Shown here piece after piece: positions 6,402-30,940 of a stretch of DNA of 32,892 nt; position 1 is the first letter of the stretch, and each line of letters opens with the position of its first letter. The position numbers and the translations under genes were made by a program. The stretch is from Desulfobacteraceae bacterium. GTDB lineage: Bacteria; Desulfobacterota; Desulfobacteria; Desulfobacterales; UBA11574. The notes below the pieces were generated by a model. The model was not told where the DNA came from. It did no database searches and saw nothing but the letters and a program-made list of their open reading frames with translations. Where the stretch lies: assembly GCA_030613575.1 (NCBI GenBank), contig JAUWLP010000008.1:1-32892 (forward strand). The letters run 5' to 3'.

Positions 6402-6490
6402 TCGTGACAGTACGGCATTTTGCAATCCATCAGGTTATTATATGACCGGATGAATATTTAATATCCTTCAATCGCACAATGGAGGTTTTC

Positions 6491-8227
6491 ATGGACAAAA
6501 TTCTAAGAATCAATATGGGAAATGAAGGTGGACCTCAAGCCAGTGAAGAACCGTTGGGTGATTATGCCGGTTTGGCCGGCCGCGGCATGACATCGGCAAT
6601 TGTTGCCACAGAAGTGCCGCCACTTTGTCACCCGCTCGGAAAATACAATAAACTGATCATTGCCCCCGGGATGCTTAGCGGAAGCCATGCCGCTCAGTCC
6701 GGGCGAGTTTCGGTAGGGTGTAAAAGCCCCCTTACCGGCGGGATCAAGGAAGCCAATTCCGGCGGCCAGGGTGCTCAAGTCCTCGCCCGGTTAAAATATG
6801 CTGCCATTGCACTCGAAGGTAAACCCAAAGATAACACCCTTTACAAAGTGGTTATTAACAAAGACGGAGTAGAAATAATTCCCGATAACAGTCTTAAAAT
6901 GGTGGGGAACTACGATTTGATTGATAAGATAAAGTCAGAATACGGTGACAAGGTTGCCTGCATCTCCATCGGTCCGGCCGGCGAAATGAAAATGGCTGCC
7001 GCTACGGTTGCCTTTACCGACATGGAGCAACGACCGACTCGTCATGCTGGTCGAGGCGGTGTTGGTGCCGTTATGGGGTCCAAAGGCGTCAAGGTCATCG
7101 TGTTAGATGATAGCGGGATGCCAACGAGGTCTCCCAAGGATCCGGAAAAGTTTAAAGCGGCAAACAAGGAGTTTGTCCGGGGCCTAAAAAAACATCCAAT
7201 AACGGGCCAAGGGCTTCCTTCATTCGGAACCAACATATTGACCAATCTGATAAACGAAGCCGGCGCATTACCAACTCATAATTTTCAAACCGGCCGCTTT
7301 GATGGTGCCGGCAATATCAGCGGCGAAACTCAGTCTAAGATCATGAAGTCCCGCGGGGGTACGGTCGCAAAAGGCTGCCACAAAGGCTGCGTCATCCGGT
7401 GCTCGGGCATCTACAATGATAGAGATGGCAACTACCTGACCAAACGGACGGAATATGAGACGGTCTGGGCCCACGGTGCCAATTGCTGCATTGATGATAT
7501 GGATGCCATTGCCATGCTTGACCGCCTGGACGATGATTACGGTCTGGATACCATCGAAATGGGCGCCGCCATCGGTGTGGCCATGGAGGCCGGACTGGCC
7601 AAGTTCGGTGATGGCGAAGCTGCTATTAACCTTTTAAAGGAAGTCGGCAAAGGAACGTCGTTGGGGCGTATTCTCGGAAGTGGGGCCGCTGTAACCGGCA
7701 AGGTTTTTGGTGTTGAACGGGTTCCCGTGGTCAAAGGCCAGGCCATGCCGGCCTACGATCCCCGCTCGGTCCAGGGTATTGGGGTGACCTACGCCACCAG
7801 CCCTATGGGCGCCGACCACACGGCCGGCTATGCGGTTACCGCCAATATCCTCGGTGTTGGTGGCACCGTGGACCCACTGAAACCTGAAGGTCAGGTGGAA
7901 CTTTCCCGAAACCTCCAGATTGCCACGGCCGCCATCGATGCAACCGGATTATGCTTATTTATTGCGTTTGCGATTCTGGATCAGGAGGATACGTTCAATG
8001 CCATGATTGACATGCTCGGGGCATTTACCGGTCAGGATCTTACTGCTGACGACGTAGTCGCATTAGGGAAAAAGATACTTGACTATGAAAAAGATTTCAA
8101 TACCCGGGCAGGCTTCACATCAAAGCAGGATCGGCTGCCCGATTTCTTTAAAAATGAACCTCTGCCGCCCCACAATGTAACTTTTGAGGTCAAAGACGAA
8201 GATCTTGACCAGGTATTTAACTGGTAA
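6491..8227 (+). CDS. aor: Aldehyde:ferredoxin oxidoreductase (tungsten/molybdenum)
   Basis: This enzyme of the AOR family oxidises aldehydes to carboxylates (or the reverse) with ferredoxin, using a bis-tungstopterin and one [4Fe-4S] cluster. The start is ATG 6491, because GGAGG (6481-6485) sits just before it; an in-frame ATG at 6479 would overlap that site. The 578-residue protein has the N-terminal pterin domain, three cluster cysteines C296-x3-C300-x3-C304 (GCHKGCVIRC), the GLDTIEMG motif near residue 351, and the distal cysteine C488 in ATGLCLF. The first spacing is x3, not the x2 of the Pyrococcus enzyme, so it belongs to another branch and the substrate is unknown. No redox partner, transporter or pterin synthesis gene is adjacent. 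It is expected to be cytoplasmic. Confidence 0.92.
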   Translation: MDKILRINMGNEGGPQASEEPLGDYAGLAGRGMTSAIVATEVPPLCHPLGKYNKLIIAPGMLSGSHAAQSGRVSVGCKSPLTGGIKEANSGGQGAQVLARLKYAAIALEGKPKDNTLYKVVINKDGVEIIPDNSLKMVGNYDLIDKIKSEYGDKVACISIGPAGEMKMAAATVAFTDMEQRPTRHAGRGGVGAVMGSKGVKVIVLDDSGMPTRSPKDPEKFKAANKEFVRGLKKHPITGQGLPSFGTNILTNLINEAGALPTHNFQTGRFDGAGNISGETQSKIMKSRGGTVAKGCHKGCVIRCSGIYNDRDGNYLTKRTEYETVWAHGANCCIDDMDAIAMLDRLDDDYGLDTIEMGAAIGVAMEAGLAKFGDGEAAINLLKEVGKGTSLGRILGSGAAVTGKVFGVERVPVVKGQAMPAYDPRSVQGIGVTYATSPMGADHTAGYAVTANILGVGGTVDPLKPEGQVELSRNLQIATAAIDATGLCLFIAFAILDQEDTFNAMIDMLGAFTGQDLTADDVVALGKKILDYEKDFNTRAGFTSKQDRLPDFFKNEPLPPHNVTFEVKDEDLDQVFNW

Positions 8228-27698: not shown

Positions 27699-28769
27699 CT
27701 ATAATTCATTAAATTTTTCAACTTCAGCCAGTAAAACCTCGACAAGTTTTTCTTCAGGAAACTTTTTTATCACCTTTCCCTTCTTGAAAAGAATCCCTGT
27801 GCCATCACCGCCGGCAATACCGATATCAGCCTCCTTGGCTTCTCCCGGTCCGTTCACCACGCAGCCCATGATGGCAAGTTTAATCGGCAAGGGGTTTAAT
27901 AGTAACGCCTTTTCAATACGTTCCACAATATTAAAAAGATCGATTTTACAGCGTCCGCAGGTCGGGCATGATATAATGTCGGGGCCATGCTGTCGGATAT
28001 CGAGTGCTTTCAGGATTTCATATCCAACCCTGACCTCTTCAACCGGATCCCGTGTTAAAGAGACACGGATCGTATCTCCAATACCTTCTGAAAGAAGCAT
28101 TCCTATGCCAAGGGACGACTTGACGATTCCGGAATAAAGCCCCCCTGCCTCTGTTACACCCACATGAAGCGGGAGATCGGTTTTTGAGGAAAGGAGCCTG
28201 TAAGCATCTACGGTACGATGCACATCAGAGGCCTTAATCGAGATTTTTATATTGTGAAAATCGAATGACTTTATTAAATCAATATGCCGCAGGGCACTTT
28301 CAACCATGGCTTCTGCGCTTGCCCCATTATATTTCTTCAGGATATCTTTTTCAAGGGAGCCCGAATTAACCCCTATTCTAATAGGGATATTAAAAGTCTT
28401 TGCGCAGTCAACAACCGCTTTTACTTTTTTATCACTACCGATATTACCGGGATTTAGCCTCAGCCCGTCAGCACCTCTCCTTGCTGCGGTTATGGCCAGA
28501 CGGTAATCAAAATGTATGTCAGCTATAATCGGAATAGAAACCTTTTCCTTTATTGAAGAAATTGCCTCAGCCGCCTCCGGGTCGGGCACGGCCACCCTTA
28601 CAATTTCACATCCGGCCGCTTCCAGGCGCTGAATTTGTGAAACAGTGGCCGGAACATCTTGAGTAAATGTATTTGTCATGGACTGAACCACAACAGGAGC
28701 ATTGCCGCCCACCTTTACATTTCCAACCTTAATTTGACCCGTATTTTTGCGTTTAATAAAAAAGGACAT
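27699..28769 (-). CDS. ispG: 4-hydroxy-3-methylbut-2-enyl-diphosphate synthase
   Basis: IspG (GcpE) makes HMBPP from methylerythritol cyclodiphosphate in isoprenoid synthesis, using a [4Fe-4S] cluster. The 356-residue protein has the TIM-barrel start VVVQSMTNTFTQD, the ADIHFDYRLA strand, LRLNPGNIG, and the cluster ligands C268-x2-C271 (ISCPTCGRC) and C303 with E310 (GCVVNGPGEA). The set is complete and lacks the plant-type insertion. It appears to be the first gene of ispG-proS-rel. GAGG lies about ten bases before the start. Confidence 0.97.
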   Translation of the reverse strand: MSFFIKRKNTGQIKVGNVKVGGNAPVVVQSMTNTFTQDVPATVSQIQRLEAAGCEIVRVAVPDPEAAEAISSIKEKVSIPIIADIHFDYRLAITAARRGADGLRLNPGNIGSDKKVKAVVDCAKTFNIPIRIGVNSGSLEKDILKKYNGASAEAMVESALRHIDLIKSFDFHNIKISIKASDVHRTVDAYRLLSSKTDLPLHVGVTEAGGLYSGIVKSSLGIGMLLSEGIGDTIRVSLTRDPVEEVRVGYEILKALDIRQHGPDIISCPTCGRCKIDLFNIVERIEKALLLNPLPIKLAIMGCVVNGPGEAKEADIGIAGGDGTGILFKKGKVIKKFPEEKLVEVLLAEVEKFNEL

Positions 28770-28890: not shown

Positions 28891-29001
28891 TTTGGCTTTT
28901 TGCGAGACCATTGTATTTGTCTTGTAAAAAATTTGGCGGCATCATAATTTAAAAAAAGTCAAAATTGACGGTCTAAATCGGACTTTTTACGAGATCATCA
29001 A
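28891..29001. repeat. Hairpin repeat family B, degenerate arms
   Basis: TTTGGCTTTTTGCGAGACCA (28891-28910) and CGGACTTTTTACGAGATCAT (28979-28998) are direct copies of the right arm of the element at 26040-26164. The block 28968-29001 matches the complement of 26015-26048 at most positions. Together they look like a decayed or rearranged copy. It lies just before the small duplicated gene. Confidence 0.6.
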
Positions 29002-29021
29002 TATTATGAAAGGAGCAACAT

Positions 29022-29456
29022 ATGAATCTTCACAAAGACAAACAATTTGCACAAAAGCACGGTCCGGATGCGAAACCGGATATTTTAATTAAAAATGAAA
29101 TTATAAACAGGGCGAAAGAGAATAAAATCCCCTGTGCTGTGGCATTTGAAATCGCAAAGGAGCTGCAGGTATCAGAAGATGCGGTTGGTATGACCGTTGA
29201 TCTGATTAATTACAGGCTGGTAAAATGCCAGCTGGGATTGTTTGGGTATCAGCCAAAAAAAAAGATTGTAAAGCCTCAAAATAAGGTAAGTGAGGATTTA
29301 AAAGATGCCATTTCTGATGCGCTGGTCCAGGGGAGACTTTCTTGCAAGAGTGCATTGGATATCGCATCCCGTTTTAAAGTTCACAAAATGAAAGTCAGCG
29401 GGGCCTGCGAAACCATGGGTGTCAAGATAAAACACTGCCAGCTTGGAGCGTTTTAG
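29022..29456 (+). CDS. Small protein of two tandem C-x30-C / CQLG units
   Basis: This 144-residue protein is not one I can name. It contains two copies of one unit (about residues 22-74 and 90-144). Each has a helical stretch, a cysteine (C38, C108), an [ED]IA helix ending in V, and the terminal motif CQLG-x-F (C69, C139). The cysteine spacing is identical, 31 residues from first to second cysteine in both copies. Each unit looks like a helix-turn-helix with a short wing; the paired cysteines could bind metal or form a redox pair. A strong AAAGGAG precedes the ATG. Function is unknown; a DNA-binding or metal-sensing role is only a suggestion. Confidence 0.82.
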   Translation: MNLHKDKQFAQKHGPDAKPDILIKNEIINRAKENKIPCAVAFEIAKELQVSEDAVGMTVDLINYRLVKCQLGLFGYQPKKKIVKPQNKVSEDLKDAISDALVQGRLSCKSALDIASRFKVHKMKVSGACETMGVKIKHCQLGAF

Positions 29457-29703: not shown

Positions 29704-30297
29704 ATGAAATACTTTCAATTGCGAGATATAAAAAAACTGTATTTTGGTTATGAAGATATTGCACGGATACTGGGCATTTCACAAAACTCTGCCAAAATAA
29801 CGGCACATCGTTATGTAAAGCAGGGAATGCTAATCCGGGTGAAACGCAATATTTACATTCTTAAAGAAAGATGGACGAGTTTTGACCGCGAACAGAAATT
29901 TGCCATCGCAAATATTTTTCAGGTTCCGTCCTACATTTCTCTTATGACCGCTCTGGATTACTATGAAATAACAACTCAAATACAGCGTGATTTTATCGAA
30001 TCCGTCGTGATTAAACGGACGATAAGAAAAGAAATTGATCATACCGTTCTTAACTATACAAAAATCAACGCCGACGTGTATTGGGGATTTCTGAAACACC
30101 AGGGGTTTTTTGTCGCGGAACCTGAAAAGGCTTTTCTGGATGGTGTCTATTTGATGTCTTTCGGACGGTATAAATTGGATATGCCCTCTATTGATTTTAA
30201 TAAATTGGATATGGAAAAAATCGAGCGCATGGCACAGTCGTTGCCTTTAAAAACCCAAAATTTTTTAAACAAATATGAATATTTTCGAAAAACATGA
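29704..30297 (+). CDS. abiEi: AbiEi-type antitoxin, autoregulator
   Basis: This 197-residue protein is of the AbiEi antitoxin family of type IV toxin-antitoxin systems. The N-terminal 55 residues form a winged helix (EDIARILGISQNSAKITAHRYVKQGMLIRVKRNIYIL). The C-terminal region, with SYISLMTALDYYEI and EPEKAFLDGVYL, is characteristic of AbiEi relatives. Family members repress their own operon and counter the toxin without binding it. A promoter and inverted repeat lie directly upstream. The gene overlaps the toxin gene by 23 bases. The ATG at 29704 has only a weak AGG upstream. Confidence 0.88.
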   Translation: MKYFQLRDIKKLYFGYEDIARILGISQNSAKITAHRYVKQGMLIRVKRNIYILKERWTSFDREQKFAIANIFQVPSYISLMTALDYYEITTQIQRDFIESVVIKRTIRKEIDHTVLNYTKINADVYWGFLKHQGFFVAEPEKAFLDGVYLMSFGRYKLDMPSIDFNKLDMEKIERMAQSLPLKTQNFLNKYEYFRKT

Positions 30298-30940
30298 AAT
30301 TTTTGAGATCGAGGTCCTGGAAAAACTGAAAAATGCACGTTTGCTGGATTCACTCGTTTTCGGCGGCGGTACGATGCTCAGGCTTTGCCACGAACTCAAA
30401 CGCTATTCGGTCGACCTGGATTTCTGGCGGATTAAAGACACGGCTGAAACCACCCTTTTCGATAAAATTAAAGATGTCCTGCAACAGAATTATGACATAA
30501 CAGATGCGCAAATGAAGCATTTTACAGTTTTGCTTGAAATCCGTTCAGGGTATTTCCCAAAGCGACTGAAAATTGAAATCAGAAAAGAAATAAGGGATTG
30601 GGATTTTCAGGAAAAGATCGCCTACTCGAGGTTCAGTACGAAACAGGTTGTTTTAAAAGCGCACACGCTCGAACAAACGATGAAAAATAAAATCGCTGCA
30701 TTATTGGAAAGAGTTGAGATCCGTGACGGGTTTGATATTGAATTCCTGTTGCGGCAAGGTATTCCGCTGCCAAACCTTTCTAACGCAGATAAGACGAAAA
30801 TGATTGCCAAATTGGACAGTTTCAAAAAGAATGACTTTAAAGTAAAACTCGGTTCTATTTTAGAAAGCGATATTCGGGCCTATTACATTGAGAATCAATT
30901 TAATTATCTCAGGCAGAAACTTGCGTCATTTGAAACATAG
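30275..30940 (+). CDS. abiEii: AbiEii-type nucleotidyltransferase toxin
   Basis: This 221-residue toxin of the AbiEii/AbiGii family has the nucleotidyltransferase motif GGGT (30-33) followed by RYSVDLDF (S45, D47, D49). Downstream, KNKIAALLERVEIRDGFDIEFLL carries the conserved Lys and Arg-Asp elements of the family. Related toxins inhibit growth by adding nucleotides to tRNA or by GTP-dependent action, and some abiE loci block phage. All motifs are intact, so the toxin is probably active. The start overlaps the antitoxin end by 23 bases and has no good Shine-Dalgarno of its own, which suggests coupled translation. Confidence 0.88.
   Translation: MNIFEKHEIFEIEVLEKLKNARLLDSLVFGGGTMLRLCHELKRYSVDLDFWRIKDTAETTLFDKIKDVLQQNYDITDAQMKHFTVLLEIRSGYFPKRLKIEIRKEIRDWDFQEKIAYSRFSTKQVVLKAHTLEQTMKNKIAALLERVEIRDGFDIEFLLRQGIPLPNLSNADKTKMIAKLDSFKKNDFKVKLGSILESDIRAYYIENQFNYLRQKLASFET

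Follow-up and report, generated by a model that had tools for sequence, protein, structure and literature searches.

In IscR and related regulators of the Rrf2 type, a winged helix and cysteine ligands are combined in one small chain, and the mycofactocin precursor MftA is likewise small, has a radical-SAM neighbour and ends in a motif that is conserved. The cysteines of FeoC (Klebsiella pneumoniae type) are clustered in its wing. An Fe-S cluster has been reported for FeoC, itself a small winged helix (PMC5519574). Here, we analyzed a stretch of 32,892 nucleotides from a Desulfobacteraceae bacterium (the window), in which one gene encodes a protein made of two similar units (Table 1); a single unit also exists as a stand-alone protein of ~57 aa in the same phylum. 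Both forms resemble FeoC in being small stand-alone proteins, here with a predicted winged-helix-like fold. However, their cysteines are spread as C-x30-C(-x3-C), at -31, 0 and one of +4, -28 or -10 counted from the cysteine of the CQLG motif, and no feoB neighbour was noticed. FeoC Pfam (E up to 1) and Rrf2 Pfam were both missing from the matches listed for the two-unit protein, for 38 members (the 25 commonest of 38 families) and for 18 members, and the cysteine positions also differ from those of the winged-helix Fe-S regulators of the IscR/Rrf2 group. If our reading is right, the two-unit and one-unit proteins would be comparable with FeoC in working while standing outside the FeoC family.

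The open reading frame of the two-unit protein, which starts with ATG, is a real gene, because it follows a ribosome binding site, has a dN/dS of ~0.15 and turned up in a protein search of 60 related genomes in 48 of them, with very few exceptions as a single copy. Compared with two relatives (L031 and L032), dN was ~0.09 and dS ~0.6, with the differences mostly at third codon positions, indicating purifying selection. The named records of the relatives were MAGs labelled Desulfobacteraceae, Desulfobacterales or Deltaproteobacteria. Long open frames of ~370 aa, seen with the homologues L050 and L055, were rejected as fusions, being apparently read-through of the strand opposite ispG. A perfect 8-bp inverted repeat (AAAAAGTC...GACTTTTT) was present at 28953-28988, 5' of the two-unit gene, and the relatives do not have it. 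Autoregulation was considered and rejected, since the upstream regions of 24 relatives showed no common palindrome.

Our results revealed that the halves of the 144-aa protein are a true duplication. Aligned without gaps over 60 residues, they scored 64 (BLOSUM62); shuffled halves gave a mean of 22.8 (sd 4.3, maximum 50) and none of 5000 attained 64, so the internal duplication seen in the original prediction was borne out. The unit length was 56-60 aa. A tree put the first units, the second units and the one-unit proteins mostly in groups of their own, which is what a single old duplication at the origin of the two-unit form would leave: 75 of 82 first units formed one clade (support 0.89), and the grouping of the second units was weaker (0.48). 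L042, L108, L116, L117, L161 and L173 form a divergent subfamily, also of two units, that is extended at the N-terminus. Three genomes (G128, G216 and G026) carried two different two-unit paralogues each (L107, L108, L109, L110; L041, L042).

Table 1. Features of the two-unit gene and its divergent neighbour, in window coordinates. Cysteine positions are counted from the CQLG cysteine (0).
Feature	Coordinates	Strand	Remarks
Two-unit protein gene	29022..29456	+	144 aa, pI 9.4, 16.0 kDa
Ribosome binding site AAAGGAG	29009..29015	+	6 bases 5' of ATG; read from sequence
Unit 1 (aa 17-75)	29070..29246	+	C38-x30-C69-Q-L-G-L-F-G; conserved cysteines: two only
Basic linker (aa 76-85, YQPKKKIVKP)	29247..29276	+	P78 and K81 nearly invariant
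Unit 2 (aa 86-144)	29277..29453	+	C108-x30-C139-Q-L-G-A-F at the C-terminus, extra C129; modelled H-b-H-turn-H-b
Cys38 codon	29133..29135	+	unit 1, position -31
Cys69 codon	29226..29228	+	unit 1, position 0
Cys108 codon	29343..29345	+	unit 2, position -31
Cys129 codon	29406..29408	+	unit 2, position -10, third cysteine
Cys139 codon	29436..29438	+	unit 2, position 0
ispG (4Fe-4S enzyme), divergent neighbour	27699..28769	-	adjoins the two-unit gene in most closer relatives

A profile built from 38 members found the family in 188 of 395 genomes of one phylum, which includes many sulfate reducers and to which these distribution figures apply; a separate profile of the one-unit proteins likewise reached 188 of the 395. 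Many matches beyond the order were the stand-alone proteins of ~57 aa, which share the unit and its C-x30-CQLG-x-F signature with the two-unit protein but have only one unit, usually with a third cysteine at +4, and often lie in a radical-SAM operon. No sequence family match was obtained in Pfam, NCBIfam, PHROG, PADLOC or PDB, in agreement with the original prediction, which could attach no family name. The motif strings CQLGCF, CQLGAF and CQLGLF were not found in the open literature searched. We accordingly regard the family as new and its predicted winged-helix-like fold as a familiar one. Tiny as it is, the gene occurs in about half of the genomes sampled from the phylum, and still no family model gives it a name. 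A mobile or viral origin was rejected, since neither plasmids nor phages nor viral contigs matched the one-unit form.

A single unit is predicted to take up a small winged-helix-like fold (H-b-H-turn-H-b). AlphaFold2 gave a model of unit 2 from 13 unit sequences with a pLDDT of 83, comprising a helix (6-15), a strand (20-21), two helices (23-32 and 37-47) and a last strand (49-50), which agrees with the helix-turn-helix-like unit proposed from the sequence at the outset. C108 opens the second helix of the model and C139 follows its final strand. Pairing of the two short strands, in the manner of a winged helix, would place the beginning of helix 2 near the CQLG motif and the end of helix 3, so that the cysteines at -31 and 0 could meet. 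The full-length model of the two-unit protein was not used (pLDDT 46). Weak Pfam matches included many HTH families (GntR, HTH_36, NirDL-like HTH and Xre-like), with GntR at 11.6 bits for the two-unit protein, below its curated cut-off of 27. Profile-profile comparison with 23 neighbour families gave the HTH of the adjacent radical-SAM protein as the best match (E 0.0012 as a single comparison, probability 20%). These sequence hints agree with an HTH for the unit.

Cysteine conservation was followed in 206 units, namely 38 from one-unit matches, 84 first and 84 second units, anchored on the CQLG cysteine. The sole unit without this cysteine was cut by a contig end (L114), and one of the 38 matches was a contig-end fragment of a two-unit gene (L030), leaving 37 true one-unit proteins. 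A cysteine was present at -31 in 206/206 units (100%), at a spacing of exactly 31 to position 0, with Q at +1 in 95-98%, G at +3 in 97-100% and F or Y at +5 in 100%. In an alignment of 38 homologues, C38, G56, D60, C69, G72, G75, C108, C139, G142, A143 and F144 were invariant. The exact spacing noticed earlier, C38-x30-C69 against C108-x30-C139, thus held throughout, and homologues lacking the cysteines were sought among these CQLG-anchored units and none was found. However, the proposed "pair" per unit fits mostly the first units (79 of 84 without a third cysteine), whereas stand-alone and second units normally have three; C129, the third conserved cysteine of unit 2, had been passed over. 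Among the true one-unit proteins, 36 of 37 had a third cysteine, usually at +4 (CQLGC), and those without it at +4 nearly always had one at -28. Second units had it in 80 of 84 cases, at -10 in 72 (86%) and at +4 in eight. The two places were never both cysteine (0/72), and +4 was cysteine in 8 of the 12 second units without -10 (Fisher p 1e-8, uncorrected for ancestry). This exclusion, and the exchange of +4 for -28, are the pattern expected of a relocated ligand and may reflect the third ligand of one site shifting between neighbouring places. It is a lead, not proof, because independent exchanges were few and the p-values ignore ancestry. The positions of the third cysteine hint at a thiolate metal or Fe-S site.

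The explanation that we favour, with not quite an even chance of being right, is that each unit, or the second one, holds a thiolate-ligated metal or Fe-S site and that the protein serves metalloenzymes as a sensor or adaptor. The two-unit protein would have arisen by tandem duplication of a small winged-helix-like domain that also stands alone. In each domain, the cysteine that opens helix 2 would form a thiolate site with the CQLG cysteine after helix 3, and the third cysteine would complete it in most stand-alone and second units. The site would most likely hold an Fe-S cluster or another thiophilic metal. Depending on its cofactor, the domain would then regulate oxygen-sensitive metalloenzymes or serve them as an adaptor, and its targets would be radical-SAM enzymes, the maturation of Mo-formate dehydrogenase, siroheme decarboxylase and Fe-S carriers. 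In Desulfobacterales, the duplication would have joined two units in one chain, unit 1 retaining the basic pair only. However, two cysteines, as in 79 of the 84 first units, would be too few for a cluster of their own, which counts against the explanation.

The gene neighbourhoods bear on the putative role. In closer relatives, the two-unit gene was usually divergent from ispG, followed by proS and a RelA/SpoT-like gene; ispG is probably context and not a partner. One-unit genes were often followed immediately, on their own strand, by a gene for a radical-SAM protein whose C-terminus is HTH-like, and this in turn by one for a large CoA-dehydratase activase. The arrangement with the radical-SAM gene was found in 11 genomes of six families (sample of 99), within ~35 bp in 10 of the 11. 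In five loci (L086, L088, L094, L098 and L104) the one-unit gene, the radical-SAM protein and a ~1390 aa CoA-dehydratase activase formed an operon; several radical-SAM families scored for this radical-SAM protein, all far below their cut-offs, and its C-terminus was an HTH. FdhD was directly downstream of the one-unit gene in one copy from genome G251 and in the copy of G295, and the second G251 copy belonged to a formate dehydrogenase operon, with FdhE on one side of it and MoeA on the other. Other one-unit genes preceded the siroheme decarboxylase AhbA (score 138.3 against a cut-off of 140) and an Mrp/ApbC-type Fe-S carrier ATPase, and one two-unit gene came after AhbC, a gene that we take to be hemB, and AhbD (444.8 against a cut-off of 500). 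In L034, L035 and L042, the two-unit gene had in its vicinity a gene that at its start is similar to hybrid cluster protein. Over 99 genomes, co-presence was weak with the radical-SAM gene (p 0.003) and with CdhC (p 0.012), in tests that ignore ancestry. An alternative heme (Ahb) function was rejected, for despite several Ahb neighbours there was no co-occurrence with AhbA in the 99 genomes, and so was a link to sulfate reduction, as DsrA did not co-occur with the family in the same 99. Oxygen-sensitive cofactor enzymes are the theme common to these neighbourhoods, a modest inference because strict anaerobes are full of such enzymes. Against an accessory role, the contexts were diverse and the two-unit genes stood mostly alone beside ispG.

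The winged-helix-like model of the unit would also suit a DNA-binding transcription factor, in which the cysteine pair is a metal-free redox or thiol switch (disulfide or persulfide) and the fused dimer uses helix 3 together with the basic linker to bind a short operator. The pI of the window protein (9.4), that of most two-unit proteins (> 8.5) and the conservation of the basic linker fit this. However, the one-unit proteins range in pI from 5.4 to 9.4 and their helix 3 is often acidic, the 24 upstream regions share no palindrome, and a simple pair leaves the third cysteine unexplained; we consider such a factor unlikely. The same third cysteine, present in most one-unit proteins and second units, speaks against a purely structural Cys4 zinc or iron site between two units, formed by a homodimer of the one-unit protein and within the chain of the duplicate. 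Two invariant cysteines per unit, and both pairs retained in the covalent duplicate, are what such a site would need, but the full-length model gave no usable inter-unit geometry, and we hold it to be quite unlikely.

Since the conserved motif is the C-terminal end of the one-unit protein and a radical-SAM gene follows 0-35 bp downstream in many one-unit loci, the protein could instead be a substrate of that enzyme, either a RiPP-like precursor or a modified protein, with its C-terminal CQLGCF modified as in mycofactocin. This is very improbable. Conservation spans the whole domain and not the tail alone, the motif is internal in the two-unit proteins, none of which was seen beside that enzyme, and about half of the one-unit loci do not have it as a neighbour. 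The adjacent radical-SAM protein (Radical_SAM plus an HTH-like C-terminus) had no Pfam match to a SPASM domain, and the 18 one-unit members had no relevant NCBIfam match to known RiPP precursor families. Conservation of the whole domain and the internal motif of the two-unit proteins also set the family apart from MftA, to which there was no family match.

The favoured metal or Fe-S site can be put in a bolder form, which we regard as doubtful: a class of stand-alone winged-helix proteins not described before, whose third ligand is mobile (C-x30-C plus a cysteine at +4, -28 or -10), would bind an Fe-S cluster and couple cofactor state to the maturation of radical-SAM enzymes or molybdoenzymes in about half of the phylum, two such domains being fused in Desulfobacterales. 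If an Fe-S cluster or metal is bound, the family would be a new small sensor or adaptor tied to radical-SAM enzymes, the maturation of formate dehydrogenase and alternative heme synthesis. Comparing the one-unit with the two-unit form would then make it easy to test how a site of this sort is assembled.

Downstream of the two-unit gene, a pair of genes at 29704-30940 had Pfam matches to AbiEi/AbiEii, a type IV toxin-antitoxin, and AbiEii was also matched in PADLOC (E 9e-100). The pair was not found as a common neighbour at the other loci. A role of the two-unit gene in anti-phage defence was rejected, PADLOC giving no match to it though AbiEi/AbiEii are its next two genes. The window also carries, at 6479-8227, an aldehyde ferredoxin oxidoreductase-like gene (AFOR_N, AFOR_C), which is probably tungsten-dependent.
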